Below are positions 6,636 through 63,695 of a stretch of DNA of 64,000 nucleotides, one piece after another (the first letter of the stretch is position 1; each line of letters starts with the position of its first letter). A program made the position numbers and the translations under genes. The notes below the pieces were generated by a model that searched no databases, was not told the DNA's origin, and worked only from the letters and a program-made list of their open reading frames with translations. This stretch comes from Nocardioides sp. (GTDB lineage Bacteria > Actinomycetota > Actinomycetes > Propionibacteriales > Nocardioidaceae). The stretch covers positions 1 through 64,000 of the forward strand of contig NZ_JAURVJ010000044.1 in NCBI RefSeq assembly GCF_030655615.1, given 5' to 3'.

Positions 6636-9415
6636 CGGTCGAGCTGTCGGTCGGGCTGTCGGTCGGGCTGTCGGTCGGGTCCGCGGAGCTCCACCAGGTC
6701 GCGCAGGTCGTCGTTGCTCAGCTCGGTCAGCGCGGCCTCGCCGCGGCCGAGGACGGCGTCGGCCAGCGCGCGCTTGCGGCTGAGCAGCTCGGCGACCTTC
6801 TCCTCGACGGTGCCGCGCATGATCATCCGGTGCACCTGGACCGGACGGGTCTGGCCGATCCGGTAGGCCCGGTCGGTGGCCTGCTCCTCGACGGCGGGGT
6901 TCCACCACCGGTCGACGTGGACGACGTGGTCGGCGCGGGTGAGGTTGAGGCCGGTGCCGCCGGCCTTGAGCGAGAGCAGGAAGACCGGCACGTCGCCGGC
7001 CTGGAAGCGCGCGACCATCGCCTCGCGGTCACGCACGGGCGTGCCGCCGTGGAGGAACTGGTGGGTGACGCCGGCCCGGTCGAGGTGGGACTCGAGCAGG
7101 CGGCCGAGAGCGACGTACTGGGTGAAGACGAGGACGGAGCCGCCTTCGGCGACGGCGGTCGAGACGAGCTCGTCGAGCAGGTCGAGCTTCTCCGAGCGGC
7201 CGGCGAGGCGGACGGCGCCGGACTGCTTGAGGAACTGCGCCGGGTGGTTGCAGATCTGCTTGAGGCCGGTGAGGAGAGCGAGCACCATGCCGCGGCGGGT
7301 GTCGTCGTCGGCGCGCTCGATGCGCTCCATCGTGTCGCGGACGAACGCCTCGTAGAGCACGACCTGCTCGCGGGTCAGGGTCAGCGGGTGGTCGGTCTCG
7401 GTCTTGGGCGGCAGCTCGGGGGCGATGCCGGGGTCGGACTTGCGGCGGCGCAGCAGGAACGGTCCGACCAGGTCGGCGAACTGGCGCGCCTTGGTCGGCT
7501 CGAGACCCGACTCGATCGGCCCGGCCCAGACCTTGCGGAAGGCGTTGCGGCTGCCGAGCAGGCCGGGTGTCGCCCAGTCGAGGATGGCCCACAGCTCGGT
7601 CAGGTTGTTCTCGACCGGGGTGCCGGTGAGGGCGACGCGGGCGGTGCTGGGGATGGTGCGCAGCTTGCGGGCCGTGGACGACGCGGGGTTCTTGACGTGC
7701 TGGGCCTCGTCGGCGACGACCAGGTCCCACGGGACCCGGGCGAGGTCCTCGGCGCCGACGCGCATCGTGCCGTAGGTGGTCAGCACGAACCCGGTGGCGC
7801 CCTCGAGGTCGCGCTGGGTGCCGTGGAAGCGGCGCGTCTCGACCCCGGGCGCGAACCGGTGGACCTCGGCCTCCCAGTTGCCGAGGAGGCTGGCCGGGCA
7901 GACGACCAGCGTCGGGCCGGTCGCGCCCGCCTCGACGCGGTGGAGGTGGAGCGAGATGAGGGTGACGGTCTTGCCGAGGCCCATGTCGTCGGCCAGGCAC
8001 GCACCGAGCCCGAGGGCCGTGAGGTCGGCCAGCCAGGTGAGGCCGTGGCGCTGGTAGTCGCGCAGGTGGGCGTGGAGGCCGGCCGGCGCGTCGACCGGCT
8101 CGCGGGTGGCGGCGGTGAGCAGGCGCTCGCGCATCGTGAGCAGCGACGCCCCGACGACCACCGAGGTGTCCGTGTCGGGCTCGACCTCGACCACGCCGGT
8201 GAGCGCGGCGGCGATGGCCTGCACCGGCTTGACGGTGCGGATCAGCCGCTTGCGCGCCCGTCGCGCGGTGGCCGGGTCGACGACGGTCCAGGCGCCGCGG
8301 AGCTTGAGCACCGGCGAGGCGGCCGTGGCGAGCTGGTCCATCTCGTGGTCGGTGAGCGGGTCGCCGTGGAGCGCGAGCTGCCACTTGAAGCTGAAGAGCG
8401 TCTCGGTCGACAGCAGCGGCTGGTTGAGCGGCTCCTCGCGCTGGGTGCCGCCGGCCCGCCGGGTGGCGGGGGCGGCGTCGAGGACGGCGCTGGAGGTGAG
8501 GTCGCGACCCAGCGCGCGCGGCCAGAGCACGTCGACCCCGCGCTCGCCGAGCGCCGCGACACCGCCGTCGAGGAGGCTGACCAGCTCGTCGGTGTCGAGG
8601 GTGATCTCGTCGGGCACCCGCAGCGCCAGCAGCCGGTCGAGCGCTGGCCAGGCCTCGGCCGCCGAACGCAGGGCGATGCTCGCATGGGTGCGCGCGCGGT
8701 CGCCGAAGCCGTGGGTCTCGTGGTCGGTGGTGAAGAGCACCGCAGCGTCGCAGAGGTGGAGGGGGTCCTGCTCGTCGTGGACCTGCAGCACGACCCGCAC
8801 CGAGCCCGCGACCAGCTCCTCCTCGTCGGCCTCGACCCGCAGCGAGATGCGCACCAGCTGGGGCAGGTCGGCGGCCGCGGCGACCGTGCGGTGGCGGGCG
8901 ATCCGCGCCTGGAGCCGCTCGGTGAAGTCGGTGGTCGGCACCGGCGCGCGGACGGACGCGCGGCCCGGCGCGCTCGGCGTACGACGGGCGGTGGCGGTGG
9001 CGGTGGCGTTGGCGGTGGCGGGCGGGTGACGCGGCATGGTGTCGGCGATGGCGTCGAGCACCTGGCGCACCAGGGCCGTGGCGTTCGCGGCGTCGAGGTC
9101 GTCGTGGGCGCGCGAGCCGGCCAGCAGCGAGACCCGCTCGGTGTCGCGGGCGTCGAGCGGTGAGATGCGCCAGGCGCCGTCGCCCGGCTCGAACTTGCCG
9201 TCGGCGACCAGGCGCATCCCGAGCAGCACCGCGCCCGACAGCAGCCCCACGCTGGGATGGACGTCGTCGCGACCGCGCGCCCTGGTGAGGACCGGGAGCG
9301 CCGCTCGCATCGGCAGCGCGACGGTGCGGCGGTCGTCGCTGAACTCCACGACGCTGTCGCGCGGCGGGTCGGCCGCGCGGAAGGTCGCGGTGCCGGTGAC
9401 CGGGACGAAGCTCAC
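6632..9415 (-). CDS. SNF2-family DEAD/DEAH-box helicase
   Basis: 927 aa. The N-terminal half looks like the bacterial SNF2-associated domain (DUF3670-type). The ATPase core follows: DDMGLGKTVTLISL (Walker A), VADEAQHVKNP (Walker B, DEAQ) and LTGTPVENNLTELW, then FLLSLKAGGTGLNLTRADHV, DRWWNPAVEEQATDRAYRIG and a C-terminal RGTVEEKVAELLSRK segment. It should be an ATP-driven DNA translocase rather than a strand-separating helicase. GTG start at 9415. The C-terminus ends in a DRQP-type repeat from 12-bp DNA repeats. The downstream SWIM gene overlaps by four bases. This is a backbone gene pair, distinct from the island SNF2 at 56897. Confidence 0.93.
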   Translation of the reverse strand: MSFVPVTGTATFRAADPPRDSVVEFSDDRRTVALPMRAALPVLTRARGRDDVHPSVGLLSGAVLLGMRLVADGKFEPGDGAWRISPLDARDTERVSLLAGSRAHDDLDAANATALVRQVLDAIADTMPRHPPATANATATATARRTPSAPGRASVRAPVPTTDFTERLQARIARHRTVAAAADLPQLVRISLRVEADEEELVAGSVRVVLQVHDEQDPLHLCDAAVLFTTDHETHGFGDRARTHASIALRSAAEAWPALDRLLALRVPDEITLDTDELVSLLDGGVAALGERGVDVLWPRALGRDLTSSAVLDAAPATRRAGGTQREEPLNQPLLSTETLFSFKWQLALHGDPLTDHEMDQLATAASPVLKLRGAWTVVDPATARRARKRLIRTVKPVQAIAAALTGVVEVEPDTDTSVVVGASLLTMRERLLTAATREPVDAPAGLHAHLRDYQRHGLTWLADLTALGLGACLADDMGLGKTVTLISLHLHRVEAGATGPTLVVCPASLLGNWEAEVHRFAPGVETRRFHGTQRDLEGATGFVLTTYGTMRVGAEDLARVPWDLVVADEAQHVKNPASSTARKLRTIPSTARVALTGTPVENNLTELWAILDWATPGLLGSRNAFRKVWAGPIESGLEPTKARQFADLVGPFLLRRRKSDPGIAPELPPKTETDHPLTLTREQVVLYEAFVRDTMERIERADDDTRRGMVLALLTGLKQICNHPAQFLKQSGAVRLAGRSEKLDLLDELVSTAVAEGGSVLVFTQYVALGRLLESHLDRAGVTHQFLHGGTPVRDREAMVARFQAGDVPVFLLSLKAGGTGLNLTRADHVVHVDRWWNPAVEEQATDRAYRIGQTRPVQVHRMIMRGTVEEKVAELLSRKRALADAVLGRGEAALTELSNDDLRDLVELRGPDRQPDRQPDRQLDR
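6643..6678. repeat. 12-bp tandem repeat at the SNF2 C-terminus
   Basis: Three exact copies of GCTGTCGGTCGG in a row, with a degenerate partial copy on the left. In frame they encode the DRQP repeats that end the SNF2 protein. Such a tract can change copy number by slippage without breaking the frame. Confidence 0.85.
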
Positions 9416-9564: not shown

Positions 9565-9993
9565 ATGACTCTCTCGGAACCCTTCCGCCCGTCCATCCGC
9601 ACCCAGGCCGACCTCGAGCACGCCTGGCGCCACCTCATGGAGCCGCTCGGCTTCTCCCGCAGCAGTGTCTGGATGATGCTGCTCGACGCCGACGACCGCC
9701 CCCTCCCCCAGCTCACCGAGGTCGAGGACTGCCACCGGCCGCCCGAGCCCGAGGTGCTGGCCGGGTTCGCCGAGCTCGCCGGCACCCTCGTAGACGACGT
9801 CGCCCCCGGTGGCCGCTGGGCCTTCCTGCTGACCCGGCCCGGCGGGGCGACCGTCACCGACCTCGACCGCGCCTGGGCCAACGGCCTGGTCAGGGCCTGC
9901 CGGGCCGCCGGGGTCCGGACCGAGGTGGTCCACCTGGCGACCGACGTCGACCTCCTGCCGCTGCCCTACGACGCGCTGTCCGGCGCCGCCTGA
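9565..9993 (+). CDS. Conserved hypothetical protein (142 aa)
   Basis: I do not recognise a named family. The protein (MTLSEPFRPSIRTQADLEHA...) is soluble, without signal peptide or membrane helix, and has DTLHLA-like spacing only in a loose sense. Features include HAWRHLMEPLGFSRSSVWMM, an acidic middle and a hydrophobic segment WAFLLTRPGGATVTDLD. It could be a DNA-repair or RadC-associated accessory, but this is a guess. ATG 9565 is chosen over the upstream track start because composition becomes coding there. It is divergent from the SNF2 gene, with about 150 bp between the two starts. Confidence 0.65.
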   Translation: MTLSEPFRPSIRTQADLEHAWRHLMEPLGFSRSSVWMMLLDADDRPLPQLTEVEDCHRPPEPEVLAGFAELAGTLVDDVAPGGRWAFLLTRPGGATVTDLDRAWANGLVRACRAAGVRTEVVHLATDVDLLPLPYDALSGAA

Positions 9994-10003
9994 CTCCCCG
10001 GGG

Positions 10004-10399
10004 TCACCGGGCAGGTACGACGCGCCGGCGGCTGATGCGCCAGCCCCCGGGCGTGAGGACGACCTCGTCCTCGTAGGTCACGGTGCCGGCGGCCCCGTCG
10101 GCCATCACCGACAAGCCCTTCGAGAGCACCGTCACCGTGCCATCGGCGGCCTCGGTGACCACCACGTTGGTGACGTGGTGGCCCGCAGGCTGGTCGCCCG
10201 GCGCCGCCGTGAAGAGGTCGGTGATGTCGGGCAGCCCCCGCACGACGCCCAGGCCGTAGGCCGTGACGTCGTACTCCGCGTCGGACGTCAGCAGCAGGTG
10301 CAGGTCGTCGGTGCGGCGCTGGTCGGCGAGGTGCCCGTGCAGGGCGACGAGCTCGTGCAGCGCGAGCCTGTCGGCGGTCGTGAGCGGCATGCTCGCCAT
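10004..10399 (-). CDS. SnoaL-like / NTF2-fold protein
   Basis: 131 aa. LTTADRLALHELVALHGHLA, TSDAEYDVTAYGLGVVRGL and the beta-rich end YEDEVVLTPGGWRISRRRVV match SnoaL-like, nuclear-transport-factor-2-fold proteins, which act as small-molecule isomerases, cyclases or binding modules. WRISRR near the C-terminus is a good family marker. Either ATG 10399 or ATG 10390 could be the start. It lies 8 bp downstream of the AAA ATPase stop in the same direction and may be co-transcribed with it. The substrate is unknown. Confidence 0.8.
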   Translation of the reverse strand: MASMPLTTADRLALHELVALHGHLADQRRTDDLHLLLTSDAEYDVTAYGLGVVRGLPDITDLFTAAPGDQPAGHHVTNVVVTEAADGTVTVLSKGLSVMADGAAGTVTYEDEVVLTPGGWRISRRRVVPAR

Positions 10400-10407
10400 C
10401 CTGCCCC

Positions 10408-11586
10408 TCAGCCGGCGCTCTCGGCGCGGACGAACGCCGCGAACCCCGGCACGGTGAAGCGGAGGGTGCCCCTGTCGGCGGCCTCGACCAGGCCCTTGTC
10501 GAGCAGGCTGCGCCGCGGCTCGCTGAGGTCGTTGCTGGTGACACCCATCCGATCGGCGATCGCGCCCCGGCGCACCGGGCTCTCCCGGTCGTCGGTGAGC
10601 TCGGCCAGGGCGACGAGGAGGCGGCGCTCACCGGGCGCGGCCTTCGACCACCGGGCGCGGAACATGGTGTCGAGCTCGTCGGCGACGAGCGGACGGGCCC
10701 GGTCGAGCGCGTCGAGCGGCAGCACCGCGCCCTCGTCGGGACCGACCACGCGCCACAGCGCGTCGGCGTAGAGCTGGAGGAAGTAGGGGTAGCCGTCGGC
10801 GATCCGCACGACCTCGGCCGCGAGCTCCGGCTCCCACGTGACCCGGTGGGCGCGGGCCGGACCCTCGAGCACCTCGGCGGCGTCGACGGCCGACAGCCGC
10901 TGCAGGGTGCGGAAGGCGAAGCGCTCGCTGAACGTGACGGCCGCGGTGAGCACGTCCGGGGCGTTGGGCAGGCCGACCGCGAAGACGACGGCCGGCGGCT
11001 CGGGCGTCGACTGCTGCAGCTCCTGCCAGGCGTAGGCCAGGGTGCGCAGGTCCTCACGCGGGGCTGCCTGGACCTCGTCGACGAGCAGGGCGACCCCGGC
11101 CGACCCGCGCTCGCGCGCGGCGATCGCGGCGGCCGACACCAGCTCGGCGAACGCGGTCGAGGCGGCGCCCGAGCCCGGCGTACGACGCGGCTGCACGTCG
11201 ACCTCGACCCCGGCGCTCGCCCCGAGGGCGCCCAGCTCGAGGCTCACGCTCTGGAACCGCTCGCGCAGCGGCGTCCGCGGTCCCACGTCGACGCCGAGCC
11301 CCTCGAGCGCGCGGAGCAGCCCGTGGGTCAGCCCCGCCACCAGGCTCTCGTCGCCGCGCGCGGTGACCCAGACGACGACGGCTCCGGACTGCGCCGCGGC
11401 GTCGCGGACGGCCTTGAGCAGCGAGGTCTTGCCGACCCCGCGGGAGCCGATGTCGACCTGCACCCGGCCGAGGAACCGGCCGTAGGTCGCCATCATCGAC
11501 AGGTCGGCCCGCGCCCTCTCGAGCTGTTCCTCGCGCCCGACCAGCACGGTGGGGGTCTCACCCGGGGTGTAGGGACTCGGCAGCAT
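10408..11586 (-). CDS. AAA-type ATPase with C-terminal winged helix
   Basis: 392 aa. VLVGREEQLERARADL begins an ATPase domain with Walker A GSRGVGKTSLL (around residue 50) and Walker B VALLVDEVQAAPRED. FAVGLPNAPDVLTAAVTFSE is a sensor-like region, and PRRGAIADRMGVTSNDLSEP-type sequence at the C-terminus forms a winged helix. Orc/STAND-like ATPases with this layout act as regulators or replication/defence ATPases; I cannot say which. The ATG 11586 start is one base from a perfect palindrome with 15-bp arms, very AT-rich in this genome, which strongly suggests autoregulation or a binding site for this protein. No ribosome site is obvious. Confidence 0.8.
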   Translation of the reverse strand: MLPSPYTPGETPTVLVGREEQLERARADLSMMATYGRFLGRVQVDIGSRGVGKTSLLKAVRDAAAQSGAVVVWVTARGDESLVAGLTHGLLRALEGLGVDVGPRTPLRERFQSVSLELGALGASAGVEVDVQPRRTPGSGAASTAFAELVSAAAIAARERGSAGVALLVDEVQAAPREDLRTLAYAWQELQQSTPEPPAVVFAVGLPNAPDVLTAAVTFSERFAFRTLQRLSAVDAAEVLEGPARAHRVTWEPELAAEVVRIADGYPYFLQLYADALWRVVGPDEGAVLPLDALDRARPLVADELDTMFRARWSKAAPGERRLLVALAELTDDRESPVRRGAIADRMGVTSNDLSEPRRSLLDKGLVEAADRGTLRFTVPGFAAFVRAESAG

Positions 11587-11671: not shown

Positions 11672-12718
11672 TCAGTGCAGGGCGACGCGGCCGGTGATCG
11701 GGGGCAGGTCGGCGAGGGTGACGATGCCGGGGCGGGCGGCGACGACCGACGGGACGGCGTTGGTGACCGGCATGGCGGTGTAGATCATGCCGAGGTCCAT
11801 GAACCCCTCCGGCCAGTCCTTCGGCGGCAGGCAGTGGATGACGGTGCGCATGTTGGGCACCCCGAACACCTGGATGACGTGGCCGTGCGCCAGCGGCTTG
11901 GGCGGGGTGACGTGCTCGCCCATCGTCCAGTTGAAGCCCACCGACACGACGTTGCGGTCGCCGACCCAGCCGCGGTGGTAGCCCATCACGCCGCCCACGG
12001 TGCCGGCCGGGATCTGCATGAACCCGAGGTCGGTGTCGCCGGTGGCGGCGGTGAACTCGACGTCGAACGTGAGCCGGTCGAGCGTCACCCCGAGGGCGTC
12101 GGCCATCATCGCGGCCGACTCGGCGAAGACCTCGCTCTCGCGGCGCACCGACTCGGCCAGGCCGGGGGTGTCCGGGGGCTGCGAGAAGCCCATGGCGGTC
12201 TGCGTGCCGGCCGACTCGTACGTCGAGCAGTCGACCGACTCGGTGATCCGGATCTCGTCGACGCGTTCGCACGACCCGCTGAGGACCATGCCGACGAGGT
12301 TGGTCATGCCGGGGTGGGCGCCCGACCCGAAGATCGACGACCGACCGGTCTCGCAGGCCTCCTCGATCCGGGCCCGGTCCTCGGGGGTCTGCTTGCCGCC
12401 GGTGATCCAGGCTGCGCTGGAGCAGACGTTGACGCCGCTCTCGAGCAGCGCGACCAGGTCGTCGACGTCGGGCCACAGCGGGTTGTAGCAGCAGGCGTCG
12501 GCCCCCAGCGCGACGAGCGCGGCGACGTCGTTGGTCGCGACGACGCCGGTCGGCCCGCGCTCCTCGAGGAGCCCGCAGAGCTCGGCGGCGTCCTTGCCGA
12601 CCTTGCCGGGGCCGTGGGCGTAGACACCGACCAGCTCGAGGTCGGGGCGGGCGATGATGGCGGCGAGGGAGCGCCGTCCGATGTTTCCGGTCGTCCACTG
12701 GATCACGCGCAGGGTCAT
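11672..12718 (-). CDS. NAD(P)-dependent DapB-like amine dehydrogenase family protein
   Basis: 348 aa. The N-terminus RVIQWTTGNIGRRSLAAIIA is a Rossmann nucleotide-binding motif of the dihydrodipicolinate-reductase type, followed by ELVGVYAHGPGKVGKDAAEL. Further landmarks are CCYNPLWPDVDDLVALLESG, SGAHPGMTNLVGMVLSGSCE and PNMRTVIHCLPPKDW. Annotated relatives are called NAD(P)H-dependent amine dehydrogenase family or 2,4-diaminopentanoate-dehydrogenase-like. In actinobacteria such genes often sit near lipid or steroid catabolism, but the substrate here is unknown. Start at ATG 12718; a hairpin follows the stop. Confidence 0.82.
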   Translation of the reverse strand: MTLRVIQWTTGNIGRRSLAAIIARPDLELVGVYAHGPGKVGKDAAELCGLLEERGPTGVVATNDVAALVALGADACCYNPLWPDVDDLVALLESGVNVCSSAAWITGGKQTPEDRARIEEACETGRSSIFGSGAHPGMTNLVGMVLSGSCERVDEIRITESVDCSTYESAGTQTAMGFSQPPDTPGLAESVRRESEVFAESAAMMADALGVTLDRLTFDVEFTAATGDTDLGFMQIPAGTVGGVMGYHRGWVGDRNVVSVGFNWTMGEHVTPPKPLAHGHVIQVFGVPNMRTVIHCLPPKDWPEGFMDLGMIYTAMPVTNAVPSVVAARPGIVTLADLPPITGRVALH

Positions 12719-12739
12719 GCCGCCACCGTAGAACGTGTT

Positions 12740-13690
12740 CTAGTCACCCGACCGGGCCGTCCGGGCCCGGACCCCGGTCACGACGAGGACGACCGCCCCG
12801 AGCACACCCGCCGCGAGCGCCAAGGTCGTCGGGTGGTCCACGGCCAGCGCGGCGAGCGCGACCGGGAGCAGGGTGACCGCCATCGCCACCACGAGCACCC
12901 GAAAGCCGGCGCTGTCGGTGAGGTGGCCGAGGACCGTCCAGCCCGCCATCAGCACCGCCGCCAGCGCGAGCGTCAGGTAGACGTCGTCGGCATGGCTGAC
13001 CGGGACCAGGCCGTCCCCGGCGTCGAGGTCGACGCGCTGGAACTGCCGCGTGAACGCCACGAGCGCGACGACGCCGGTGTAGGTGGCGACCGCTCCCGCC
13101 CCCACGACGACCGCGACCGTGGTCCGCGCGGGCGGGAGCACCCACGCGACCGCCGTCACCGGCACCACGAAGACCACGACGGCGAGCGCGATCGGGACGA
13201 GGCTCGTGTTGAGCGTCGCGTCGCTGAAGCTGTCCTCGAACCCCTGGACGTAGACCACGAACGCACCCGCGACCGCGGCCACCGCCGGCGGGGCGCTCGG
13301 GACCAGGGCGTACGACGCCGCCCCCAGCGCCAGCACCACCGCGCCCGCGACGTAGGCCGTGGCGGTGCCGCCGTCGAGCCCGACCGCCACGACGAGGCCG
13401 GCGGCCAGGGACCCGAGGGCGAGCGGCCAGGGAGCCGCCGCCGCGAGGACGTCGGGGTCGCGGACCAGGGCACGGGCGCCGAAGCCGTAGAGCAGCACCA
13501 AGGCAGCCGCGACGCCGACGCCGTAGACCGTCGGGTCGAGGTCGCCCGAGGCGTTGGTGCGGGCCCGGCTGGCCGAGACCGCGACCGCCGCGGACAGCAG
13601 GGCGGCACCGAGAGCAGTGCTCGCGCTCGTCGTGCGGCGACCGGTCGTGCCGGACGTGCTGGTCGTGCGGGTCGTGCGGGCGGCGGTCAT
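12740..13690 (-). CDS. Polytopic membrane protein, unknown function
   Basis: 316 aa. After a Thr/Arg-rich N-terminus (MTAARTTRTTSTSGTTGRR) the rest is almost wholly hydrophobic, with about nine or ten likely TM helices, for example ALVLLYGFGARALV, LALGSLAAGLVVAVGL, ALAVVVFVVPVTAVAWVLPP and VLVVAMAVTLLPVALAALAV. It resembles uncharacterised actinobacterial integral membrane proteins; I see no transporter signature. The start is ATG 13690; the track ORF to 14152 reads through the neighbouring LLM gene in another frame. It ends 21 bp before the DapB-like gene start on the same strand. Confidence 0.75.
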   Translation of the reverse strand: MTAARTTRTTSTSGTTGRRTTSASTALGAALLSAAVAVSASRARTNASGDLDPTVYGVGVAAALVLLYGFGARALVRDPDVLAAAAPWPLALGSLAAGLVVAVGLDGGTATAYVAGAVVLALGAASYALVPSAPPAVAAVAGAFVVYVQGFEDSFSDATLNTSLVPIALAVVVFVVPVTAVAWVLPPARTTVAVVVGAGAVATYTGVVALVAFTRQFQRVDLDAGDGLVPVSHADDVYLTLALAAVLMAGWTVLGHLTDSAGFRVLVVAMAVTLLPVALAALAVDHPTTLALAAGVLGAVVLVVTGVRARTARSGD

Positions 13691-13713
13691 GCCCGGACAG
13701 TAGGGGCGTCGCC

Positions 13714-14589
13714 TCAGCGCAGGCCGGGCAGCACCTCGCGCGCGACCTCCTCGAGCACCGCCACGTCGCCGGCGTAGGGCTCGTCCGGGCGCGGCCAGTG
13801 GGTGACCAGGTCGGTGAACCCCAGCTCGGCCGCCCGGCCCGCGACCTCCTCGAAGTAGCCGCGGCTGGTCAGCGCGAACCGGCCGCTCCGGTCGATGTGG
13901 GGCGCGGCGTCGGTGAGCAGGTAGCGCGGCGTCGGCCCGCGGCCGGCCGTGGCCAGCGCCTCGTCGAAGGTCGCCGTGGCCGCCGCGAGTCCGGCCCACC
14001 ACTCCTCGTCGGTCTCGACCGTCGGCCCGGTCGTCACCCAGCCGTCGCCGACCCGGGCGGCGAAGCGCAGCGAGCGTGGGCCGTTGGCCGCGACGAGCAG
14101 AGGCGTACGACGCAGCGGGGGCAGGGTGCGCGCGTCGGACGTCGAGAACCACCGTCCCTCGCGGGTCACGTGGTCGCCGTCGCGCAGCGCGACGAGCGTC
14201 TCGGTGAACTCCTGGAACCGGTCGACGCGCTCGCGGACGGTGAGCTCGGGCAGGTCGAGCACGGTGGCGTCGAGGTTGCCGCCGGTGCCGACACCCAGCA
14301 GGAACCGGCCGTCACTGAGGTCCTCGAGCGCCTGGGCGTCGCGGAGCAGCAGGTAGGGATGACGGAAGTTGGGCGAGACGACCAACGTGCCGAGCCCGAT
14401 CCGCGACGTCACCTGGGCCGCGGCGCCCAGCACCGGCGTCGCCGTCGTCCACGGCGACTCGGGGAGTCCGCCCCACACCAGGTGGTCGTAGGTCCAGGCG
14501 TGGTCGAAACCCAGCTCCTCGGCCGCCTGCCAGCGCGGGCGGGCGTCGGCCCAGGGGAGGTCGGTCAGGATCGTGATGCCGAAGCGCAT
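13714..14589 (-). CDS. LLM-class flavin-dependent oxidoreductase (possibly F420)
   Basis: 291 aa, a luciferase-like (beta/alpha)8 barrel. MRFGITILTDLPWADARPRW opens the barrel. GFDHAWTYDHLVWGG, RIGLGTLVVSPNFRHPYLLL and SDGRFLLGVGTGGNLDATVL are the characteristic strand/loop motifs. Relatives use FMN or coenzyme F420 to oxidise or reduce diverse small molecules; actinobacterial members are often F420-dependent, but the cofactor is not provable here. ATG 14589 start. It sits 23 bp upstream of the membrane-protein gene in the same direction. Confidence 0.88.
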   Translation of the reverse strand: MRFGITILTDLPWADARPRWQAAEELGFDHAWTYDHLVWGGLPESPWTTATPVLGAAAQVTSRIGLGTLVVSPNFRHPYLLLRDAQALEDLSDGRFLLGVGTGGNLDATVLDLPELTVRERVDRFQEFTETLVALRDGDHVTREGRWFSTSDARTLPPLRRTPLLVAANGPRSLRFAARVGDGWVTTGPTVETDEEWWAGLAAATATFDEALATAGRGPTPRYLLTDAAPHIDRSGRFALTSRGYFEEVAGRAAELGFTDLVTHWPRPDEPYAGDVAVLEEVAREVLPGLR

Positions 14590-14614: not shown

Positions 14615-16729
<2,115 letters not shown>

Positions 16730-53761: not shown

Positions 53762-54250
53762 ATGTCTCGTCCCGGGCCGGGTGGTCGACGACCACAGGCA
53801 TCATCGAAAGATGCGACGAGCTCACCTTCTGGCTCGTGGGCCAGCAGTCCTGCGACCCGGAAGGTCATGCTCGGCAACCGGAGGCGCGACACGAAGCCCG
53901 AGTTGCGGGTCCGTAGTCGGCTGCACGCTCGAGGGTTGCGATACCTCGTCGACAAGGCGCCCATCCCGACAGTTCGCAGCCGTGCCGACCTGGTGTTTCG
54001 GGGGTCGCGGGTAGCCGTGTATATCGACGGATGCTTCTGGCATGGGTGCCCTTTACACCACACCGTGGCCAAGTCGAACCAGGACTACTGGGCCGCCAAG
54101 CTTGCAGCGAACCGTGAGCGGGATGAACGGGTAGTGCGGACACTCGAAGCTGCTGGGTGGCTGCCGCTACGGTTCTGGGAACACGAGGATCCGGATTTGG
54201 TGGCCTCCGAGGTCGAAAGGTGCGTGCGCGCTCGGGGCGCATGGAGGTAG
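53762..54250 (+). CDS. vsr: Very-short-patch-repair (Vsr) endonuclease
   Basis: 162 aa. NRRRDTKPELRVRSRLHARG, APIPTVRSRADLVFRGSRVA (catalytic Asp) and VAVYIDGCFWHGCPLHHTVA (zinc-binding Cys/His cluster) followed by SNQDYWAAKL and AGWLPLRFWEHEDPD are the full Vsr signature. It nicks next to T of a T:G mismatch left by deamination of 5-methylcytosine, so it fits the 5mC methyltransferase at 58842. Length is slightly longer than usual owing to a ~35-residue N-terminal extension. ATG 53762 may overlap the divergent start (CATG). Confidence 0.93.
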   Translation: MSRPGPGGRRPQASSKDATSSPSGSWASSPATRKVMLGNRRRDTKPELRVRSRLHARGLRYLVDKAPIPTVRSRADLVFRGSRVAVYIDGCFWHGCPLHHTVAKSNQDYWAAKLAANRERDERVVRTLEAAGWLPLRFWEHEDPDLVASEVERCVRARGAWR

Positions 54251-54668
54251 CCCCGTGCCACTAGGCGGTGGTGGCGCCTTGGTCAGCCGGACGACAACGT
54301 GTCCTGCAAAGCCCGCGTAGAGTGCACAGGACGACCAGCAACAGTGCCAGCTATTCGTTCGCCCTGGCGTTGTCTCCGCCGGGGTTCTTCGTTTGGGCAG
54401 GACCGGTTCGGGTGCGGACGCGACGCGGGTGCAACTTCAAAGGTGGCCTTGACAAGGCGGATACGGCAGTGAACCCTCAAGGTTCAATATCCATCTGCTC
54501 GTGCCTCACCCAGGTGCACGGAGTTTCGGCGCAGCCAGACTGTCTCGATGCTCCCGTCCTAGGTAGCGGTCCGACCGGAGGGGCTTTTTCATACCCAGAG
54601 CACATTGCGGTGTGTTCTGACCGTCCCGCCGATCACCGGCACGGGCTCGTCGACCCCAGGAGGTCAAC
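54251..54668. other. Leader region of the defence-like operon
   Basis: 418 bp without a supported gene. TTGACA (about 54449-54454) is a good -35, but the -10 is unclear. GAACC-CTCAA-GGTTC (54471-54485) is a 15-bp palindrome. It most likely holds the main promoter for the 743-aa and SNF2 genes. The ORF at 54268 is a shadow. Confidence 0.5.
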
Positions 54669-56900
54669 GTGTCCCGCAACATCACCCGCACAGCCAAGTC
54701 CTCGCTCAGCCAGACGAGTAGCGCGGTCTTGCACCCGCTCAGCGATCCAGATCTGGCACCCCCCGCCAGCCGACTCGAGGGCCGCCCGCTCCGGCCAATC
54801 GCCTTCCGACCGGAACGCAGCAGCACCCGGCAGTCAGACGGGGCAGGCCTCACAAAGGTCGGCAGCCGCTTCCGCGACGTGTTCGCCGAGATCCACCACA
54901 TCGACCCCGACGACGTCGATCTCGGTCTCATCAGGCTCATCGAAGCCCTCAACGCCGACACCGACCGCAACCACGCCTTTCTGTCGGCTCCGCAGACAAA
55001 GCGAACCGAGTTCGGGGTTCTCCACCAGGTGCGATTCCTGGTCAACGTCCCGCTCGTCCTGCCATGGCTGACCAACGGCCGCGCACTGCGGCGACTCGGA
55101 TCCGCGCTCGGCGGCCACACCAAGCTCCTGACCACTGCGGTTGACCACGACCGTTACGACTTGCCTGTCATGGAGGTCGACGACGCCGAGGCCGTACTGC
55201 AGATCATCAATGCTCAACGTCACCTCGTGAAGCTCGACTCCTACACCTCAGCGGATCCCAAGAAGCGCAGCCGCATCGACAGCATCGTCCAGTTCGGGGT
55301 CCTTGAGCCGCCCGACATCATGCTCACCCAACTCGTCTCCGGAACCGGGTCGGCCTGGGTAGCCGAGGCCGCAGAAGGCGCACAGCGCTTGTTCTCATCG
55401 CTGCTCGGCCTAGACGCTCTCGCCCTGCGATCCGTTCATACCCTCGCCACTGCCCACTGGTTCGACGGAGGCGGCGCCCGGCTGCGTGACTACGACGCCG
55501 ACGACGTCCGCGCGTTGGAGGAAGCACTGCGGTTCAAGACAACAGCCGCCGCGGGGTACTTCCCCGGGGCCGACCAGGACGTCTGGCTCAACGACGTCGC
55601 CGAGCACAACCCCGCAGCCGTGGCGTTTCAGCTCATGCGAACGATGCCGGTCAACCTCACGTTGCGAGTCCAGCCCGACCCCGTCACCACGGCACAAGAA
55701 CGAAACCCGGTCTCGGCGACCATCCAGGAACTCATCCGCAGCTATCACGTCCCCGGCAAAATGAAGGACGCCTGGCAAGAAGCCGACGTGCACGGCCTAG
55801 TCGCCATCGGCGTCATCGACGAGTTACTCGCACAGCGTCGAGTCTCTCAGGCAGAACGATCGGCGTGGCTGGGCGAGCAGACGTTGCCCTGGGCCGGTCC
55901 CAACGTCGACGGCAACGGAGCGGCGGGCAACCGGTTGATCTCTGCCACCCGCCTAATGGCGGCTATGACCGCCGAAGACGCTGTAGCCGCGACCGAACAC
56001 GACCGCGAACCGTCGTTAAGCGTCGTCAACCGCCTTCTGCGTCAGAACAGCACCAGGGTGCACCCCGACCAGCGCGCCAAGGTCGCCGCGGCGCAGGCCA
56101 TCGCAGCACTACACCTCCACAGCACCGGCGACGAAGCGACCATCGCTGCAGCGCTCGCCGCGACCTTCCGCTCCAACTGGTTCTGGAAGACCAGCGACCA
56201 CACGGGCGTCCCCTGGACCACTCAGCTCATGCGACCCGTCGCCCACTTGGCTGAAGACGCCCAGGCCGAGCGCCGGGCCGCTGGCCAGGATGGAAGTTCC
56301 AATGCCGGGCCCGCCCAGCGAGCGCTCGCCGCCCTGGGAGCGGTCGCTTTGATCGCCAACCCGGGGCTGATCGCCAGCGGCGAAGCGCTGACGCAAACCG
56401 GACGAGGCGGCGGCGGTAAGTCCGCCGACGTCAAGGCCTCGGACCCCAGCGTCCTCCTGCAACGCATGATTCAACACGAGCATGGGATTCACCAGCTTCA
56501 CGACGCGATCAGCGCGCTCACGGCCGCTGCTGAGCCGACCGCTCCGCTCGACCGAAAGTCGCGCGAGGTGCTCGGAGACATCATGCTGCGAGGCATGTGG
56601 TTGGGCAGCAACCGCGACCCCAGCAAAACTCCCCAGGCCGAGTTCGCGCGTCGCCTCCAGGAACTCGCCGACCAGGTCAAGGCATGCGTCGATGAGTCGG
56701 AGGCTCTGCGCGGAGAGACCCCGGACAGCATCCTTGAGGTCGAGCGTGACGAGGACTCACCCGAAGAAGACCCCCTCTACGAGGTAGTGGGCATCAACGA
56801 GCAGACCGCAGAAGACGCGCTGCAGCAGCTGCTCCGGCTCAACGACTTCTTCTCGACCGGCAAGGCCTACGCGAGGGCCGCTGCTCGCATCAGTCGATGA
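54669..56900 (+). CDS. Large uncharacterised protein of the defence-like locus (743 aa)
   Basis: I do not recognise this family. A disordered Ser/Thr-rich N-terminus (NITRTAKSSLSQTSSAVLHP) precedes long helical regions: DVDLGLIRLIEALNADTDRN, FGVLHQVRFLVNVPLVLPWL, QLIRSYHVPGKMKD-like and HPDQRAKVAAAQAIAALHLH. VLQIINAQRHLVKLDSY is reminiscent of, but not the same as, a DGQHR motif. An acidic tail EVERDEDSPEEDPLYEVVGI ends it. AGGAGG five bases before GTG 54669 is a perfect ribosome site. It is coupled to the SNF2 gene by an ATGA overlap, so the two products probably act together. Confidence 0.85.
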   Translation: MSRNITRTAKSSLSQTSSAVLHPLSDPDLAPPASRLEGRPLRPIAFRPERSSTRQSDGAGLTKVGSRFRDVFAEIHHIDPDDVDLGLIRLIEALNADTDRNHAFLSAPQTKRTEFGVLHQVRFLVNVPLVLPWLTNGRALRRLGSALGGHTKLLTTAVDHDRYDLPVMEVDDAEAVLQIINAQRHLVKLDSYTSADPKKRSRIDSIVQFGVLEPPDIMLTQLVSGTGSAWVAEAAEGAQRLFSSLLGLDALALRSVHTLATAHWFDGGGARLRDYDADDVRALEEALRFKTTAAAGYFPGADQDVWLNDVAEHNPAAVAFQLMRTMPVNLTLRVQPDPVTTAQERNPVSATIQELIRSYHVPGKMKDAWQEADVHGLVAIGVIDELLAQRRVSQAERSAWLGEQTLPWAGPNVDGNGAAGNRLISATRLMAAMTAEDAVAATEHDREPSLSVVNRLLRQNSTRVHPDQRAKVAAAQAIAALHLHSTGDEATIAAALAATFRSNWFWKTSDHTGVPWTTQLMRPVAHLAEDAQAERRAAGQDGSSNAGPAQRALAALGAVALIANPGLIASGEALTQTGRGGGGKSADVKASDPSVLLQRMIQHEHGIHQLHDAISALTAAAEPTAPLDRKSREVLGDIMLRGMWLGSNRDPSKTPQAEFARRLQELADQVKACVDESEALRGETPDSILEVERDEDSPEEDPLYEVVGINEQTAEDALQQLLRLNDFFSTGKAYARAAARISR

Positions 56901-58765
56901 GTGACGTGTCGTCTCAAACCTCCGGTTCGATCGATCGTGAAGGGGGGCGACTCCTCGTCGAGTCGCCCCCCGGCATGCCCGCTCCGACCTGGGCCGTAAT
57001 CGCCCAGCGACTGCTGATGTTCGCGCGCGGTTCGGAGATCGGGGCCACGACCATCGCTGTCCCGGTAGACCAGGCGCACCTGCTGCACGAGGTACTCGTC
57101 GAACCCTGGCCCGCCCGCCTGTGGCCGTGGCATTGGTCGACCACTGCAAGAGCGACCACAGACGCAAGCATCGACCTCGCAGCGGCCTTATCGTCCCTCC
57201 TCATCGGCGACCAAGCGCCGTCGGTGCCACACGAGCAGATCGAGAACGATCTCCATGCCGCCGGTTTCAGCCGTCGTCTCCTGCCAGCTCAGATGACCGC
57301 CGTCAGTCGCCTGACGGCAGTTGGCCACGGCGCCAACTTCTCAGTCCCGGGCAGTGGCAAAACCACGATGACGCTCGCCCTGTTCGCGTTGTTGCGGCGA
57401 GCCGGAGTCGTGGACCGGATGCTCGTGGTCGCACCCGCGAGCGCATATGAGGCATGGACCGAAGAGACAAAGGATTGCTTCAACGAGCCGCGCCGCCCTC
57501 GTATCGAGGTCGCTCCGACCTCTCCGAGGAGATCGAGCGACGTCGTCGTCTACAACTATGAACGCGTGGCCATGGGCGCAACGCGTGCCGCAGTCGACGG
57601 GTGGTCGCATGGGCATCGGCTCATGGTCGTTTTCGACGAGGCGCACCGCGCCAAGAAGGGCGAGGACGGCCTCCACGGGATCGGAGCTCGCGATGTCGCA
57701 AGCCTCGCAACCGCAAGGTACGCACTCACCGGCACCCCGATGCCGAACGGTCGAGCGGACCTGGCAGCTGTGCTCGACCTTGTCTGGCCGGGTCATGGTG
57801 ACCGGCTCGCAGATCCGGCCTGCCTCAACGCCGACCGCACATGGGTACGCATCACGAAGGATGACCTCGACCTCGCTGACGCCGTCATCGAGGTTGAGCG
57901 GGTGAGGCTGGACGAGACTCATCGCGCCATTTATGACGCGTTCACGTCTGACCTTTCGCACCGCACGAGCCTGATACAAGCCTTCCCGGCCATCGCCTCT
58001 ACGTCCACAACGCGCCTGCTGGCAACGGCGACCAACCCTGCCCTGTTATTGGGTGGCTCAGGGGACGCCACCTTGGACTGGAGGGACTCCCCGGACCTTC
58101 CCGATACGGTCATGGCAGCGCTCTCTGGGCTCTCGTCCATGGTGCGTCCCACGAAGATCCTTCGTGTGGCACACCATGCGGCCGAACATCGGGCACGTGG
58201 AGACAAGTTGCTGGTGTGGACCAACTTCATCGGCAACGTCCACGAGCTCGCACGTGTTCTAGAACCGTTCGCCCCCGCAGTGGTGACCGGGGAGGTGCCG
58301 GTAAGTGATCCGGGTGCGCCGACCGACCGGGTCCGTGAGCTGCGTCGCTTTCGAGAAGACCCGGACTGTTTCGTCCTCATCGCCACTCCGCAGACGTTGG
58401 GTGAGGGCGTCAGCCTTCACAAGGTGTGTCAGTCGCAGATCCACCTGGATCGCTCCTACAACGCTGGCCTGTTTCTGCAGGCGATCGACCGGACCCATCG
58501 AGTTGGGATGCCTGAGGGGACGACGGCTCAAGTGAGAGTGCTCGTTGCGGAGGACACGATCGATGAGGATGTCGATCGGCGGTTGCGTCTTAAGGTCGAT
58601 CGAATGAATCAGGTCCTAAATGATCCGGCCCTTCGACGTCTCGCGCTGCCTGACGAGGCCGCTCCGGCCGTACGGCCGATGTCGGAGTCCGACATCACGG
58701 GACTCGTAGGCCACCTTCGAAGAGAGACCACGGATACGACCGCGCTTGAGGACGCTGGCAACTAG
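56897..58765 (+). CDS. SNF2-like DEAD/DEAH-box ATPase of the defence-like locus
   Basis: 622 aa. ATPase motifs: NFSVPGSGKTTMTLALFALL (Walker A), RLMVVFDEAHRAKKGEDGLH (DEAH) and ARYALTGTPMPNGRADLAAV (motif III). The second lobe has KLLVWTNFIGNVHELARVLE, VLIATPQTLGEGVSLHKVCQ and LQAIDRTHRVGMPEGTTAQV (motif VI). A short N-terminal ~120-residue domain precedes the core. It should translocate on DNA at the expense of ATP. It starts at ATG 56897 inside the previous stop. It is not close in sequence to the backbone SNF2 at 6632. Confidence 0.9.
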   Translation: MSDVSSQTSGSIDREGGRLLVESPPGMPAPTWAVIAQRLLMFARGSEIGATTIAVPVDQAHLLHEVLVEPWPARLWPWHWSTTARATTDASIDLAAALSSLLIGDQAPSVPHEQIENDLHAAGFSRRLLPAQMTAVSRLTAVGHGANFSVPGSGKTTMTLALFALLRRAGVVDRMLVVAPASAYEAWTEETKDCFNEPRRPRIEVAPTSPRRSSDVVVYNYERVAMGATRAAVDGWSHGHRLMVVFDEAHRAKKGEDGLHGIGARDVASLATARYALTGTPMPNGRADLAAVLDLVWPGHGDRLADPACLNADRTWVRITKDDLDLADAVIEVERVRLDETHRAIYDAFTSDLSHRTSLIQAFPAIASTSTTRLLATATNPALLLGGSGDATLDWRDSPDLPDTVMAALSGLSSMVRPTKILRVAHHAAEHRARGDKLLVWTNFIGNVHELARVLEPFAPAVVTGEVPVSDPGAPTDRVRELRRFREDPDCFVLIATPQTLGEGVSLHKVCQSQIHLDRSYNAGLFLQAIDRTHRVGMPEGTTAQVRVLVAEDTIDEDVDRRLRLKVDRMNQVLNDPALRRLALPDEAAPAVRPMSESDITGLVGHLRRETTDTTALEDAGN

Positions 58766-58805
58766 GGGCGAGTGCCTCAGGGTGGTGTCACCAGGACCGC
58801 CCGGA

Positions 58806-58835
58806 TTGCGTCCAAATTCGGTGCTCGAGTAGCGT
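58806..58835 (+). promoter_or_regulatory. Candidate own promoter of the methyltransferase gene
   Basis: TTGCGT (58806-58811), 18-bp spacer, TAGCGT (58830-58835), then six bases to GTG 58842, with no ribosome site. This is the same layout as the probable leaderless promoters at 403 and 5303. It would let the methyltransferase be made independently of the effector genes. Confidence 0.55.
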
Positions 58836-58841
58836 CGGCCT

Positions 58842-59978
58842 GTGACGACGGCGGAGCGGGAGCAGCAGCATCCGCTCCGCGCGAAAGCCAAGCCCACTGT
58901 CGATCTCCTGCGACCGCGAACGCTCAAGGTGGTCGACTTGTTCGCTGGTTGTGGAGGGCTGTCGTTGGGCGCAGAGATGGCCGCTACCGCTCTTCGTCGT
59001 CGGCTCGACGTGCGGCTTGCGGTCGACTTCGAAGCGGCGGCTACTCAGGTGTATCGATCGAACTTCGCCGCAGCGCGACGTGTCTTAACCAAGCCGGTCG
59101 AAGAAGTCCTGTCAGTTTGGACTGCACCCGAATTGACCGACGGCGAGACCCGCCACGCACGCAGGGTCGGGCGCGTCGATGTGCTCCTGGGTGGCCCGCC
59201 GTGCCAGGGACACAGCAACCTGAACAACCACACGCGGCGCAACGATCCGAAGAACGCGCTGTACCTTTACATGGTTCGCGCTGCCCGTGTGTTCGCCCCG
59301 TCAGCGGTCATCATCGAGAACGTCCCCGCCATCCTCCACGACACCTTCAACGGCTCGAATGTCGTCGAGATCGCAAGGGTCGAGTTGAAAGCCCTCGGAT
59401 ACGAGGTGCACGACCAGGTAATCCCGCTCGTCGACCTGGGTGTGGCACAACGACGGAAGCGTCATGTCTTACTTGCCACCAAGAAACCGACCGATTCTCC
59501 AGCGACAGTCCTTGAGGGGCTGATCGCCGAACCGACGCCGGTCCGTGACCTGCGTTGGGCGATCAAGGATCTCGAGACCGCGTCGGGCGTCGGTTGGGAC
59601 ACGCCACCCAAGGCAAGTCCGGCGAACTCCGAGCGCATGCAGTACCTGGTGGACTCTGGTAATCACGACCTGCCCAATGAGTTGCGGCCCGTGTGCCATC
59701 AGGGCTTGCATTCCTACGTCTCCATGTACGGGCGTCTGAAGTGGGACGAGCCCGCCCAGACGATTACGAGCGGCTTCGGAAGCATCGGTCAGGGCCGGTA
59801 CATGCATCCTGGGCAGAAGCGTGCTCTGACGGCGCATGAGGCAGCACGCATACAGGGGTTCCCTGACTACTTCCGGTTCGGTGAGGTCCAGAAGCGCAGC
59901 GACCTGGCCACGATGATCGGCAACGCAGTCCCACCTCAGCTCTCAGAGCGGATCATCCTCGCGTTGCACGGGTGGTGA
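58842..59978 (+). CDS. DNA (cytosine-5-)-methyltransferase
   Basis: 378 aa. All core motifs are present: VVDLFAGCGGLSLGAEMAAT (I), VLLGGPPCQGHSNLNNH (IV, catalytic Cys), SAVIIENVPAI (VI), QRRKRHVLLATKK (VIII), a target-recognition region, then ARIQGFPDYF (IX) and MIGNAVPPQL (X). It methylates cytosine C5 at an unknown target. A Vsr gene 4.6 kb upstream supports 5mC. GTG 58842 start with a probable leaderless promoter. Likely protects the host from the neighbouring nuclease. Confidence 0.95.
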   Translation: MTTAEREQQHPLRAKAKPTVDLLRPRTLKVVDLFAGCGGLSLGAEMAATALRRRLDVRLAVDFEAAATQVYRSNFAAARRVLTKPVEEVLSVWTAPELTDGETRHARRVGRVDVLLGGPPCQGHSNLNNHTRRNDPKNALYLYMVRAARVFAPSAVIIENVPAILHDTFNGSNVVEIARVELKALGYEVHDQVIPLVDLGVAQRRKRHVLLATKKPTDSPATVLEGLIAEPTPVRDLRWAIKDLETASGVGWDTPPKASPANSERMQYLVDSGNHDLPNELRPVCHQGLHSYVSMYGRLKWDEPAQTITSGFGSIGQGRYMHPGQKRALTAHEAARIQGFPDYFRFGEVQKRSDLATMIGNAVPPQLSERIILALHGW

Positions 59979-60183
59979 TGCCTCACGCGCTAACGGTCTG
60001 ACCCCAAGTCCAGTCCGACCTGACCGCAGCCCCGAATCGAAGTCTCATCTCTGGGCTGCCTTTCCTCTTGTTGGCCCCGGACCAGGTCACTGGCATCTAC
60101 GTTGACGGGGTCAGCCCCCAACCTGCGGCCCGCGGGCGCCCGATCCGCACCGGGACCCGGTCCCACGCGCAGAAAGCTCAAGG

Positions 60184-61941
60184 ATGGACGCACGAGAGCT
60201 CGCGGGGTCCATCGACACAGTCCCCCGTCATCTCCTTATCTGGCGTGACGGACCAGCAGCGCTGCCCAGACTGCTGGCACAAAGCACGCTGGGCCGACTG
60301 CAAGACGAAGAACGCCTGCTACTTTCCGGAATCCCTCCTACGCGCCCGGCAATCGACGAAGTTGAACACGAGAGCCGCAGCGAAAGCCGCGACCGGTGGC
60401 GGCACAACGCCGCCACGCTCGTCAGTTGGCATGCTGAATTCGGCCACATGAGCGCAGCCGAGGACCCGCCAACCATCGAACCTCGGCCCAAGCGTCACAG
60501 TGGGCGCAGGCGTCAGCGAGGGGACGGGCGTCGGCCCGTACGCGTCGCCGACTACGAATCCGCCGTCGAGGCGTCGAGCTCTTGGTGGGAGCTCGATCCG
60601 ATTCGCCTTGGGTTGCGCACCGGCGACATGACCGTTCGGCGCTCTGATGGTCGGCACGTCTGGATTCACAACACTCGGCGCCCTGAAATCGAGGCCCTTG
60701 ACCTCATCCTCGGCTACGTCACCGTCAATGACGCTCCCCCCGCCGAATGGGCTACATCCTCGAACTCAACCACCTCACGCCTCGACCCGATCGATTCCTG
60801 GTTCCACGCGCGACGGCTCGCACCACCTGACGCACCCGGACTGGGACCGCGGCACCCGAAGGCCTTCGACTTGATGAACCGTTTCCCAGTCGCTTTGCGG
60901 ACTCGCGCTTGGCGTCACACCGAAGCCAGACTGATCGATCAAGGCACCACGATCGCTTCCGATACCGATCTCGGTGGGATCACATTCGCTGACGCCCGTA
61001 CTTGCTATTCATTTCTGCTCTCTCAACTTCACCTCAACGAACTCGGTGCCTTCCACTTTGGCACTCCAGAAGCCCTCCTATGGGGCATCCGCCGCGAGCA
61101 CCTCGCCCGCGCCTTGGCGTCCCGGGTCGACCGGGACGCCGCCGAGGCCTTCATTCGCATGCTGACCTTCGTCACGGGAAGGAGCCCGTTGTCGGCGCCG
61201 CTCATCCCCAACGACGGCAAGTTCCTCATCCCCTCCGAGATCGTCTCGCCGATCGGCTACGAACGCACTCTCCTGCGCGCAGCCTCCGCGGACCCGAGTA
61301 TCGCTGGACGTCTCGGCAACGCTCTAGGACGTCGTTCGTCTCGCTGGTCCGAGCGCCTGCGCGCCGTCCCTGGGTCTCAGGTCGCAGAAGGGGTCAAGGT
61401 GCGGGATGCAGGCGGCAGGACGCTCGGAGATCTCGACCAGATTGCTTGGGACGCCCGGCGGCGGCTTCTCGTCGTGTTCGAGACGAAATGGCCAGTCGAT
61501 GCGGCCACCCTCGACGAGAGCTATAAGACCGACGCACAGTTCAGCAAAGGCGCCTCGCAGTTGGTCCGGCTCCGCGACGCGATCCGCGGCGGCGCGGCGG
61601 TCTCTTGGCCGCCAGGGTTCACGATTCCGACAGATCTCGCCGGGATTCGGACCTCGTGGTGGGTGGGGTCAGCACAACAACTCGACAGTCGGGACATCAA
61701 CTTTCCTGACATCCGCACTACGTCGTTGCGGCTGGTCGAGCAACTTCTCCCGGCCGACCATCTCGACGACCTGCTCGAGCGTCTAACGAACTTTCCGTTG
61801 CCGCGAGAAGGCATCGACTTCGAAATGGCCCAGCAGACAGTCCGCGTCGAGGCCCTCTCGATCCATTATCCCGCTATACAGATGATTGGAGAGCGACCTA
61901 CTCCGCCTTCGAACCGCCGGACCCGTCACGGGTGGACGTAG
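60184..61941 (+). CDS. PD-(D/E)XK nuclease-like protein (585 aa)
   Basis: The N-terminal ~370 residues are unrecognised (DGPAALPRLLAQSTLGRLQD; FDLMNRFPVALRTRAWRHTE). In the C-terminal part, GGRTLGDLDQIAWDARRRLL followed by VVFETKWPVDAATL gives D...ExK, the PD-(D/E)XK core, preceded by an acidic residue in GSQVAEGVKVRD. KGASQLVRLRDAIRGG follows. This makes it the best candidate for the DNA-cutting or DNA-binding subunit of the system. The ATG at 60184 has only AAGG one base upstream, so the start is uncertain. A 205-bp gap separates it from the methyltransferase gene. Confidence 0.75.
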   Translation: MDARELAGSIDTVPRHLLIWRDGPAALPRLLAQSTLGRLQDEERLLLSGIPPTRPAIDEVEHESRSESRDRWRHNAATLVSWHAEFGHMSAAEDPPTIEPRPKRHSGRRRQRGDGRRPVRVADYESAVEASSSWWELDPIRLGLRTGDMTVRRSDGRHVWIHNTRRPEIEALDLILGYVTVNDAPPAEWATSSNSTTSRLDPIDSWFHARRLAPPDAPGLGPRHPKAFDLMNRFPVALRTRAWRHTEARLIDQGTTIASDTDLGGITFADARTCYSFLLSQLHLNELGAFHFGTPEALLWGIRREHLARALASRVDRDAAEAFIRMLTFVTGRSPLSAPLIPNDGKFLIPSEIVSPIGYERTLLRAASADPSIAGRLGNALGRRSSRWSERLRAVPGSQVAEGVKVRDAGGRTLGDLDQIAWDARRRLLVVFETKWPVDAATLDESYKTDAQFSKGASQLVRLRDAIRGGAAVSWPPGFTIPTDLAGIRTSWWVGSAQQLDSRDINFPDIRTTSLRLVEQLLPADHLDDLLERLTNFPLPREGIDFEMAQQTVRVEALSIHYPAIQMIGERPTPPSNRRTRHGWT

Positions 61942-62747: not shown

Positions 62748-63695
62748 TCACGGGAGTCCCATGTAGTCCGCGACCATATGCAGGTGGTGGCTGATCTGCA
62801 GCGACTTGTTCCCCGAAGGGTTTGTCGGTGACGTACCGGCAAGGTACGTGAGGTAGGTGGCGATCGTCGGTGTGGCGGTGAACCGCCCTGGCGTCGCTGC
62901 GATCTGAGCGTTCAAGTGTGCGACCGCTTCGAGGAGTTTGGTCTGGAAGGTGCCGATGTTGCGGTCGGTTTCGTCTGAGACGAAGTGCTCGACCCAGAAC
63001 GAGTCGTCCGTCTCCTTGAACGTGATGTGGATGGCGGCGGCGCCGACGGGGCCGCCGCCGCTGCTGTACTCGCCGGGCAGGATCGTGTAGTCCGAGAAAC
63101 CGACCGAGCTGGCGGTCGCGCCGAGGTGGTTGTTGGCCAACCATTCTGCGCCGTTGTAGTCGGAGTTCCTCGCCTGGGCGTTGAAGTTGTTGATGACCTG
63201 GATCGACGGGCCGATGCTGGTCGCGAGGGCGTGTGCGTTCGCTGAGGTGGCGAACACGGTGACGTTGGCTCCCGCGAGGGCGGCGGCCAGGGCGGTCGGG
63301 TTGAGCTTGCCGGTGGCGAGTACGACTGCGACCGGGTCGGCGCCATGGGCTGTGGCGAAGGCCTGAATCTCGGCCACGGTCGTTCCGGGCCATTCTTTGA
63401 ATGCTGGGCGCAGATGGGCGGAGGCGGCGATCTGTGGGTGGATTGTCGCCGCCCAGTGTGTTTGTGCGGCGGCGTTGGAGAGTTTGTCGAGTGCCGGGTT
63501 CACGATGACGTAGGCACCGAGTCCGGCGGTGGTCAGCCGAGTCAGGGTGCGGCGGAGCTTGTCGGGTTGTACGACGGGCTCGAGGATCGGCCAGATCTGC
63601 TGCGGAGTCCCGAACCGACCGGCGGTGATGTCGAGGGCGCGCAGTTCGGCTTGGCGTGCGTACAGGTACGGAAAGTAGGGCAACGGAGTCTCCAT
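62748..63695 (-). CDS. sce7725-family protein
   Basis: 315 aa. YFPYLYARQAELRALDITAG at the N-terminus, GLGAYVIVNPALDKL and INNFNAQARNSDYNGAEWLA, and SFWVEHFVSDETDRNIGTFQ with SLQISHHLHMVADYMGLP at the end, fit the sce7725 family (beta-protein-like, phage T4 or defence-linked). Its usual partner, an sce7726-family protein, is encoded immediately upstream here. Molecular function is unestablished; a role in phage defence is inferred from context. Confidence 0.75.
   Translation of the reverse strand: METPLPYFPYLYARQAELRALDITAGRFGTPQQIWPILEPVVQPDKLRRTLTRLTTAGLGAYVIVNPALDKLSNAAAQTHWAATIHPQIAASAHLRPAFKEWPGTTVAEIQAFATAHGADPVAVVLATGKLNPTALAAALAGANVTVFATSANAHALATSIGPSIQVINNFNAQARNSDYNGAEWLANNHLGATASSVGFSDYTILPGEYSSGGGPVGAAAIHITFKETDDSFWVEHFVSDETDRNIGTFQTKLLEAVAHLNAQIAATPGRFTATPTIATYLTYLAGTSPTNPSGNKSLQISHHLHMVADYMGLP

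Follow-up and report, generated by a model that had tools for sequence, protein, structure and literature searches.

Gene content and genomic setting

The window analyzed here, a 64,000-nt stretch of a Nocardioides sp. contig (NZ_JAURVJ010000044.1, positions 1 to 64,000), carries a locus of five genes whose positions, order, and strand, as listed in the initial annotation, were confirmed by an ORF check:

53762-54250, + strand: Vsr nuclease (NCBIfam TIGR00632, 115.5 bits versus a cut-off of 97.85), with an alternative in-frame GTG start at 53723
54669-56900, + strand: P0002, a 743-aa protein of an orphan family and the upstream partner of SNF2, with a GTG start and AGGAGG just 5′ of it
56897-58765, + strand: SNF2-family ATPase (Pfam SNF2-rel_dom, 8.4e-12; SNF2 and Helicase_C domains above the Pfam cut-offs)
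58842-59978, + strand: 5mC (C5) DNA methyltransferase (PF00145, 9.6e-48; TIGR00675, 133 bits versus a cut-off of 100.65)
60184-61941, + strand: P0005, an orphan of 585 aa whose sequence includes a D...ExK-like stretch close to the C-terminus

The identities first given to the Vsr nuclease and the SNF2 protein are upheld by the NCBIfam and Pfam cut-offs, respectively, and the SNF2 motifs are intact (FSVPGSGKT, DEAH, LTGTP, GEGVSLH, and QAIDRTHRVG). The methyltransferase, previously described as complete, exceeds both the Pfam and NCBIfam cut-offs and carries all of the expected motifs (DLFAGCGG, PPCQ, ENV, QRR, and GNAVPP). Also as described, the end of P0002 and the start of SNF2 overlap in the sequence ATGA, with the 56897 start residing inside the P0002 gene. 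An RNA element was also considered for the Vsr-P0002 interval, where terminator-like sequences occur at 54361 and 54568, but this idea was dropped, as the region has no Rfam match and a z-score of -0.46.

Between approximately 39.5 kb and the point where the 104.5-kb contig ends, the GC content drops to 61-69%, compared with 72-75% before, and a tyrosine integrase is encoded downstream of the locus at contig positions 81529-82740. Because of this GC drop and the integrase, the proposal that the locus resides in an island holds. Direct repeats of at least 16 bp that might represent the ends of an element were not found between 37.5-41.5 kb and 82-84 kb. Further defense genes occupy the same island. 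Within contig positions 64001-84000, these are a NaeI-type endonuclease (PF09126, 4.2e-26), a C5 methyltransferase, and an N6/N4 methyltransferase (local positions 9993-11105 +, 12224-13207 +, and 13103-14383 -, respectively), adjoined by a second Vsr (local 14812-15663 +). A sce7725-family protein (NF033831, 4e-49) is encoded just 3′ of the locus, at window positions 62748-63695 on the - strand.

P0002 and SNF2 form a conserved pair

An alignment scan of GTDB genomes for the SNF2 family yielded 373 relatives, and among the best 80 of these 373, six were found to have a P0002 homolog encoded directly 5′ of SNF2. The homolog from Microbacterium sp. ASV49 is 54.5% identical to P0002, and those from three Streptomyces and two Pseudonocardiaceae exhibit 25-30% identity. 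With the window included, a P0002 homolog lies directly upstream of an SNF2 gene of the same clade in seven of seven cases, a proportion that is partly built in because the homologs were found through SNF2. Profile searches with P0002 itself recovered a single carrier in the host genus (220 genomes), a single one in the Microbacterium genus (298 genomes), and two each in other groups of 394 and 299 genomes. All of these carriers are genomes already found via SNF2, and thus the family is rare and patchy; a lone P0002 lacking SNF2 was not encountered in any of the four sets. Likewise, an initial search covering 98 other genomes revealed no P0002 relative, nor did plasmids or a GTDB pattern scan, and no relatives were recovered when P0002 or P0005 was used as a single query against collections of genomes, plasmids, phages, and viruses. 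P0002 and SNF2 therefore constitute a genuine conserved pair, and the coupled unit noted initially withstands the synteny check in all seven homologs.

In a phylogenetic tree of SNF2 proteins, the P0002-type representatives (n = 7) are set apart from the others by a branch whose SH-aLRT value is 99, although the root of this tree is uncertain because long branches, including those of the outgroup and the window copy, were flagged. One strain, Streptomyces katrae NRRL B-16271, has a P0002-type locus as well as a locus of the ParB type described below.

Synteny beyond the pair is more limited. In Microbacterium sp. ASV49, the genes for Vsr, P0002, SNF2, and the methyltransferase also lie together (62, 54.5, 52, and 57% identity, respectively), with the Vsr gene on the other strand, but P0005 is missing there, and thus the five-gene arrangement envisaged initially is conserved only as four genes. 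At the five other P0002 loci, the pair is essentially the sole shared neighborhood. Neither Vsr nor a C5 methyltransferase occurs within 10 kb of these five of the seven P0002-SNF2 pairs; two of the five genomes lack any C5 methyltransferase, and three have one or more elsewhere. A link to methylation is therefore not obligatory for the pair.

Wider family of the SNF2 protein and its ParB-type partners

The relatives outside the P0002 clade reveal that the window SNF2 protein belongs to a large family partnered with ParB-type proteins, a relationship that lay beyond the view of the initial annotation. We assembled 89 such loci from the best 80 of the 373 SNF2 matches together with loci found earlier, and in all 89 a ParB-type gene, recognized by a profile built here, adjoins SNF2 on its upstream side. 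A C5 methyltransferase is present within approximately 10 kb in 79 of the 89 loci and Vsr in 76, with an HNH-like gene in 77 and a DUF3883/NOV_C gene in 26; these are counts for the sample rather than rates for the 373 relatives, because members of these loci went into the profiles, the flanks (10 kb at most) are uneven and in some cases truncated, and the sample consists of the highest-scoring loci. As the host genome contains only three Vsr genes in 4.1 Mb, the association of Vsr with SNF2 is far above that expected from chance placement. The HNH-like gene encodes approximately 227 aa, usually lies 5′ of ParB, and combines a wHTH-like start with a CxxC...CxxC region and the consensus LdiaRR; the usual histidine was not seen in the CxxC...CxxC region. 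Plasmid records label some of the ParB-type partners as ParB. At one locus on a Rhizobium plasmid, the gene 5′ of ParB (6510-7376, +) has a match in PADLOC (2.8e-19) to PDLC03501, a model for a type II restriction enzyme.

The window SNF2 protein is 31-39% identical, and across the alignment 31-36% identical, to its counterparts in the ParB-SNF2-methyltransferase-Vsr loci of actinobacteria and alphaproteobacterial plasmids, with which it shares the sequence FSVPG[AS]GKT, and its score of 757.7 against the family profile is that of a protein itself included in the profile. The window locus also resembles these loci in the tight coupling of SNF2 to its upstream gene and in the adjacent C5 methyltransferase and Vsr. 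It differs in that the partner is P0002, which lacks a ParB match, and in that the methyltransferase is distant: whereas the window Vsr is 52-57% identical to several Vsr proteins of ParB-type loci, the methyltransferase is only approximately 26% identical to theirs, and thus the methyltransferase and Vsr were possibly acquired separately. A profile search of the window and the rest of the contig for the HNH-like wHTH gene or a NOV_C/DUF3883 gene returned no match.

P0002 occupies the position of ParB

Neither P0002 nor P0005 matches a family in Pfam, PADLOC, NCBIfam, or PHROGs. An AF2 model of P0002 (pLDDT 73.6) produced no significant fold match, and the two best rows of a viral Foldseek search, both DdrB-like (ParB superfamily), are not significant (E 0.08-0.09). 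The family shares the pattern D...G.xEPP...(E/D)GxxR and is fully conserved only at D204, G210, G237, and R240. A motif resembling that of ParB (IDSIVQFGVLEPP ... AEGAQRLFSSL) was noticed by eye first, and sub-regions for hhalign were picked afterwards; in these windows, chosen post hoc, the P0002 stretch aligns in the expected ParB register with P values of 0.012-0.034 against the core versus 0.3-0.54 for the reversed control. In the full-length model, G237 and R240 are located at the start of a helix that follows a beta hairpin, and this arrangement of a helix after two strands recalls ParB box II. Residues 85-345 modeled alone gave a pLDDT of 40.5.

Assignment of P0002 as a ParB protein was nonetheless rejected. 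Whole-profile hhalign gave a probability of 0.2%, hmmsearch with --max ranked the protein approximately 1000th among non-ParB ORFs, and Foldseek provided no support, and for these reasons P0002 is described by its position, as the protein that takes the place of ParB in a distinct clade. Similarly, P0002 does not match the PHROGs ParB families, whereas the ParB-type partners match them at approximately 1e-5 to 1e-6. The motif and register are consistent with P0002 being what may be a very diverged ParB-like protein. ParB-fold proteins can bind NTPs via a conserved arginine (PMC12704722), and some have been reported as nicking enzymes or NTPases (PMC5512222); these properties make both activities worth considering for P0002 but do not constitute evidence that it has either.

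Proposed function of the locus

From the observed gene content, pairing, clade structure, and linkage of methyltransferase and Vsr across the wider family, we infer a role in defense, and we consider it somewhat probable that the locus is a restriction-modification-like module in which P0002 and SNF2 act on unmodified DNA. The 5mC methyltransferase would mark host DNA as self, and Vsr would repair the T:G mismatches left by 5mC deamination. Repair of deaminated-5mC mispairs is the established role of Vsr (PMC8011034), which in the absence of its methyltransferase may cause damage itself (PMC12907096); Vsr is thus better read as the mismatch-repair companion of the methyltransferase than as an effector. 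P0002 and SNF2 would together form a single ATP-driven unit directed at incoming DNA that lacks the modification. Within this putative division of labor, SNF2 is predicted to track along double-stranded DNA because its motor motifs are present, and P0002, because it holds the position of ParB, may be the recognition or licensing partner of SNF2, perhaps with nicking activity. Against this reading, no nuclease was recognized in the core, and the HNH-like and NOV_C/DUF3883 genes of the wider family are absent from the window locus. Methylation-based discrimination of self from non-self, as suggested initially, agrees with the adjacency of the wider family to 5mC methyltransferases and Vsr, but the pair also occurs in genomes without any 5mC methyltransferase, which argues that it is not strictly gated by methylation.

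This last observation is also the starting point for an alternative that we regard as rather unlikely, though deserving of serious consideration, in which the locus comprises two independent neighbors: a 5mC methyltransferase with Vsr, representing an orphan or remnant restriction-modification system, and a self-contained P0002-SNF2 defense module responding to a cue other than methylation, the two having come together in the island. The occurrence of the pair alone in five genomes, two of them devoid of C5 methyltransferases, would be accommodated by such an arrangement, as would the patchwork nature of the island, which also holds the NaeI-type restriction-modification set. However, the four genes remain together in Microbacterium sp. 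ASV49 at 52-62% identity, and ParB-partnered SNF2 proteins mostly adjoin a C5 methyltransferase and Vsr.

It is improbable that P0005 (or Vsr) serves as the restriction nuclease of a complete five-gene, ATP-dependent restriction-modification system, with P0002-SNF2 as a translocating accessory. P0005 begins 205 bp 3′ of the methyltransferase on the same strand, and the D...ExK core first read in it is visible near the C-terminus (GDLDQIAW...VVFETKWP), but no family or structural tool supports a nuclease assignment. Furthermore, no relative of P0005 was found among 219 genomes of the genus, phages, plasmids, or viral contigs, and none lies beside the closest homologous locus, that of Microbacterium sp. 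ASV49. P0005 is therefore not borne out as a component of the system and, instead of belonging to the core, is probably a passenger or an addition specific to this lineage; of the effector set originally proposed (SNF2, the 743-aa protein, and the nuclease-like protein), the P0002-SNF2 unit is conserved, but no homolog of P0005 was found in these searches. Least probable of all is that the pair has no role in defense but serves its mobile element, for example by handling or transferring DNA or by helping the element to compete with others, P0002 then resembling a partition protein. SNF2 relatives do exist on plasmids, and the window copy lies within an integrase-bearing island, but the genes that recur in the neighborhood encode methyltransferases, Vsr, and nuclease-like proteins and are not those of partition or replication.

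Returning to the restriction-modification-like module, a broader proposal can be offered tentatively. The ParB-SNF2-C5 methyltransferase-Vsr arrangement might represent an undescribed and widespread ATP-dependent system for discriminating self from non-self, in which a ParB-fold nucleotide-binding switch would license SNF2, and in the rare branch represented by the window this switch would have been replaced by a new family able to work even without a methyltransferase. Although restriction combining a methyltransferase with an SNF2 motor is known, pairing with a ParB-type protein in hundreds of species would add a large candidate class of defense systems, and it raises the question of whether the timing of motor action on unmethylated DNA is set by an NTP switch. 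With its P0002 branch, the family would offer a natural partner-swap experiment.

Comparison with known defense systems

The five locus proteins and the sce7725-family neighbor were compared with PADLOC and NCBIfam models. PADLOC model searches, suggested alongside the initial annotation, left P0002 and P0005 unmatched, and the view that no named system fits the locus was sustained, as DISARM, Druantia, Zorya, and MORC operons each fail on their defining components among the scanned proteins. DISARM can likewise include an SNF2-like helicase and a 5mC methylase, but DrmA, DrmB, and DrmC are absent among the scanned proteins, and the DrmD model scores 32.5 bits versus a cut-off of 610. The best PADLOC match of the window methyltransferase is DruM2 of Druantia (2.7e-101), whereas a DruE-type helicase was not matched among these proteins. 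For SNF2, the best PADLOC match is ZorD of Zorya (1.9e-15), but the corresponding NCBIfam score of 22.1 bits versus 1500 marks this as a generic SNF2 match, and ZorA and ZorB are not among the scanned proteins.

Restriction-modification operons with a GHKL (MORC-type) ATPase, an SWI2/SNF2 helicase, a cytosine methylase, Vsr, and sometimes an HNH nuclease have been described (Iyer et al., 2008, PMC2292703). The window locus shares the helicase, methylase, and Vsr with these MORC/paraMORC operons, but none of its five proteins, P0002 included, has a HATPase/GHKL match in Pfam. For the ParB-SNF2-C5 methyltransferase-Vsr arrangement, we found no description in the open-access full text searched and no name in defense libraries, for which the PADLOC release was that of 2023, such that a newer name may exist. 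Judged from gene content, the locus thus compared is apparently a new variation on ATP-dependent restriction-like systems and not a categorically new kind, and the broader family to which it belongs is apparently unnamed.
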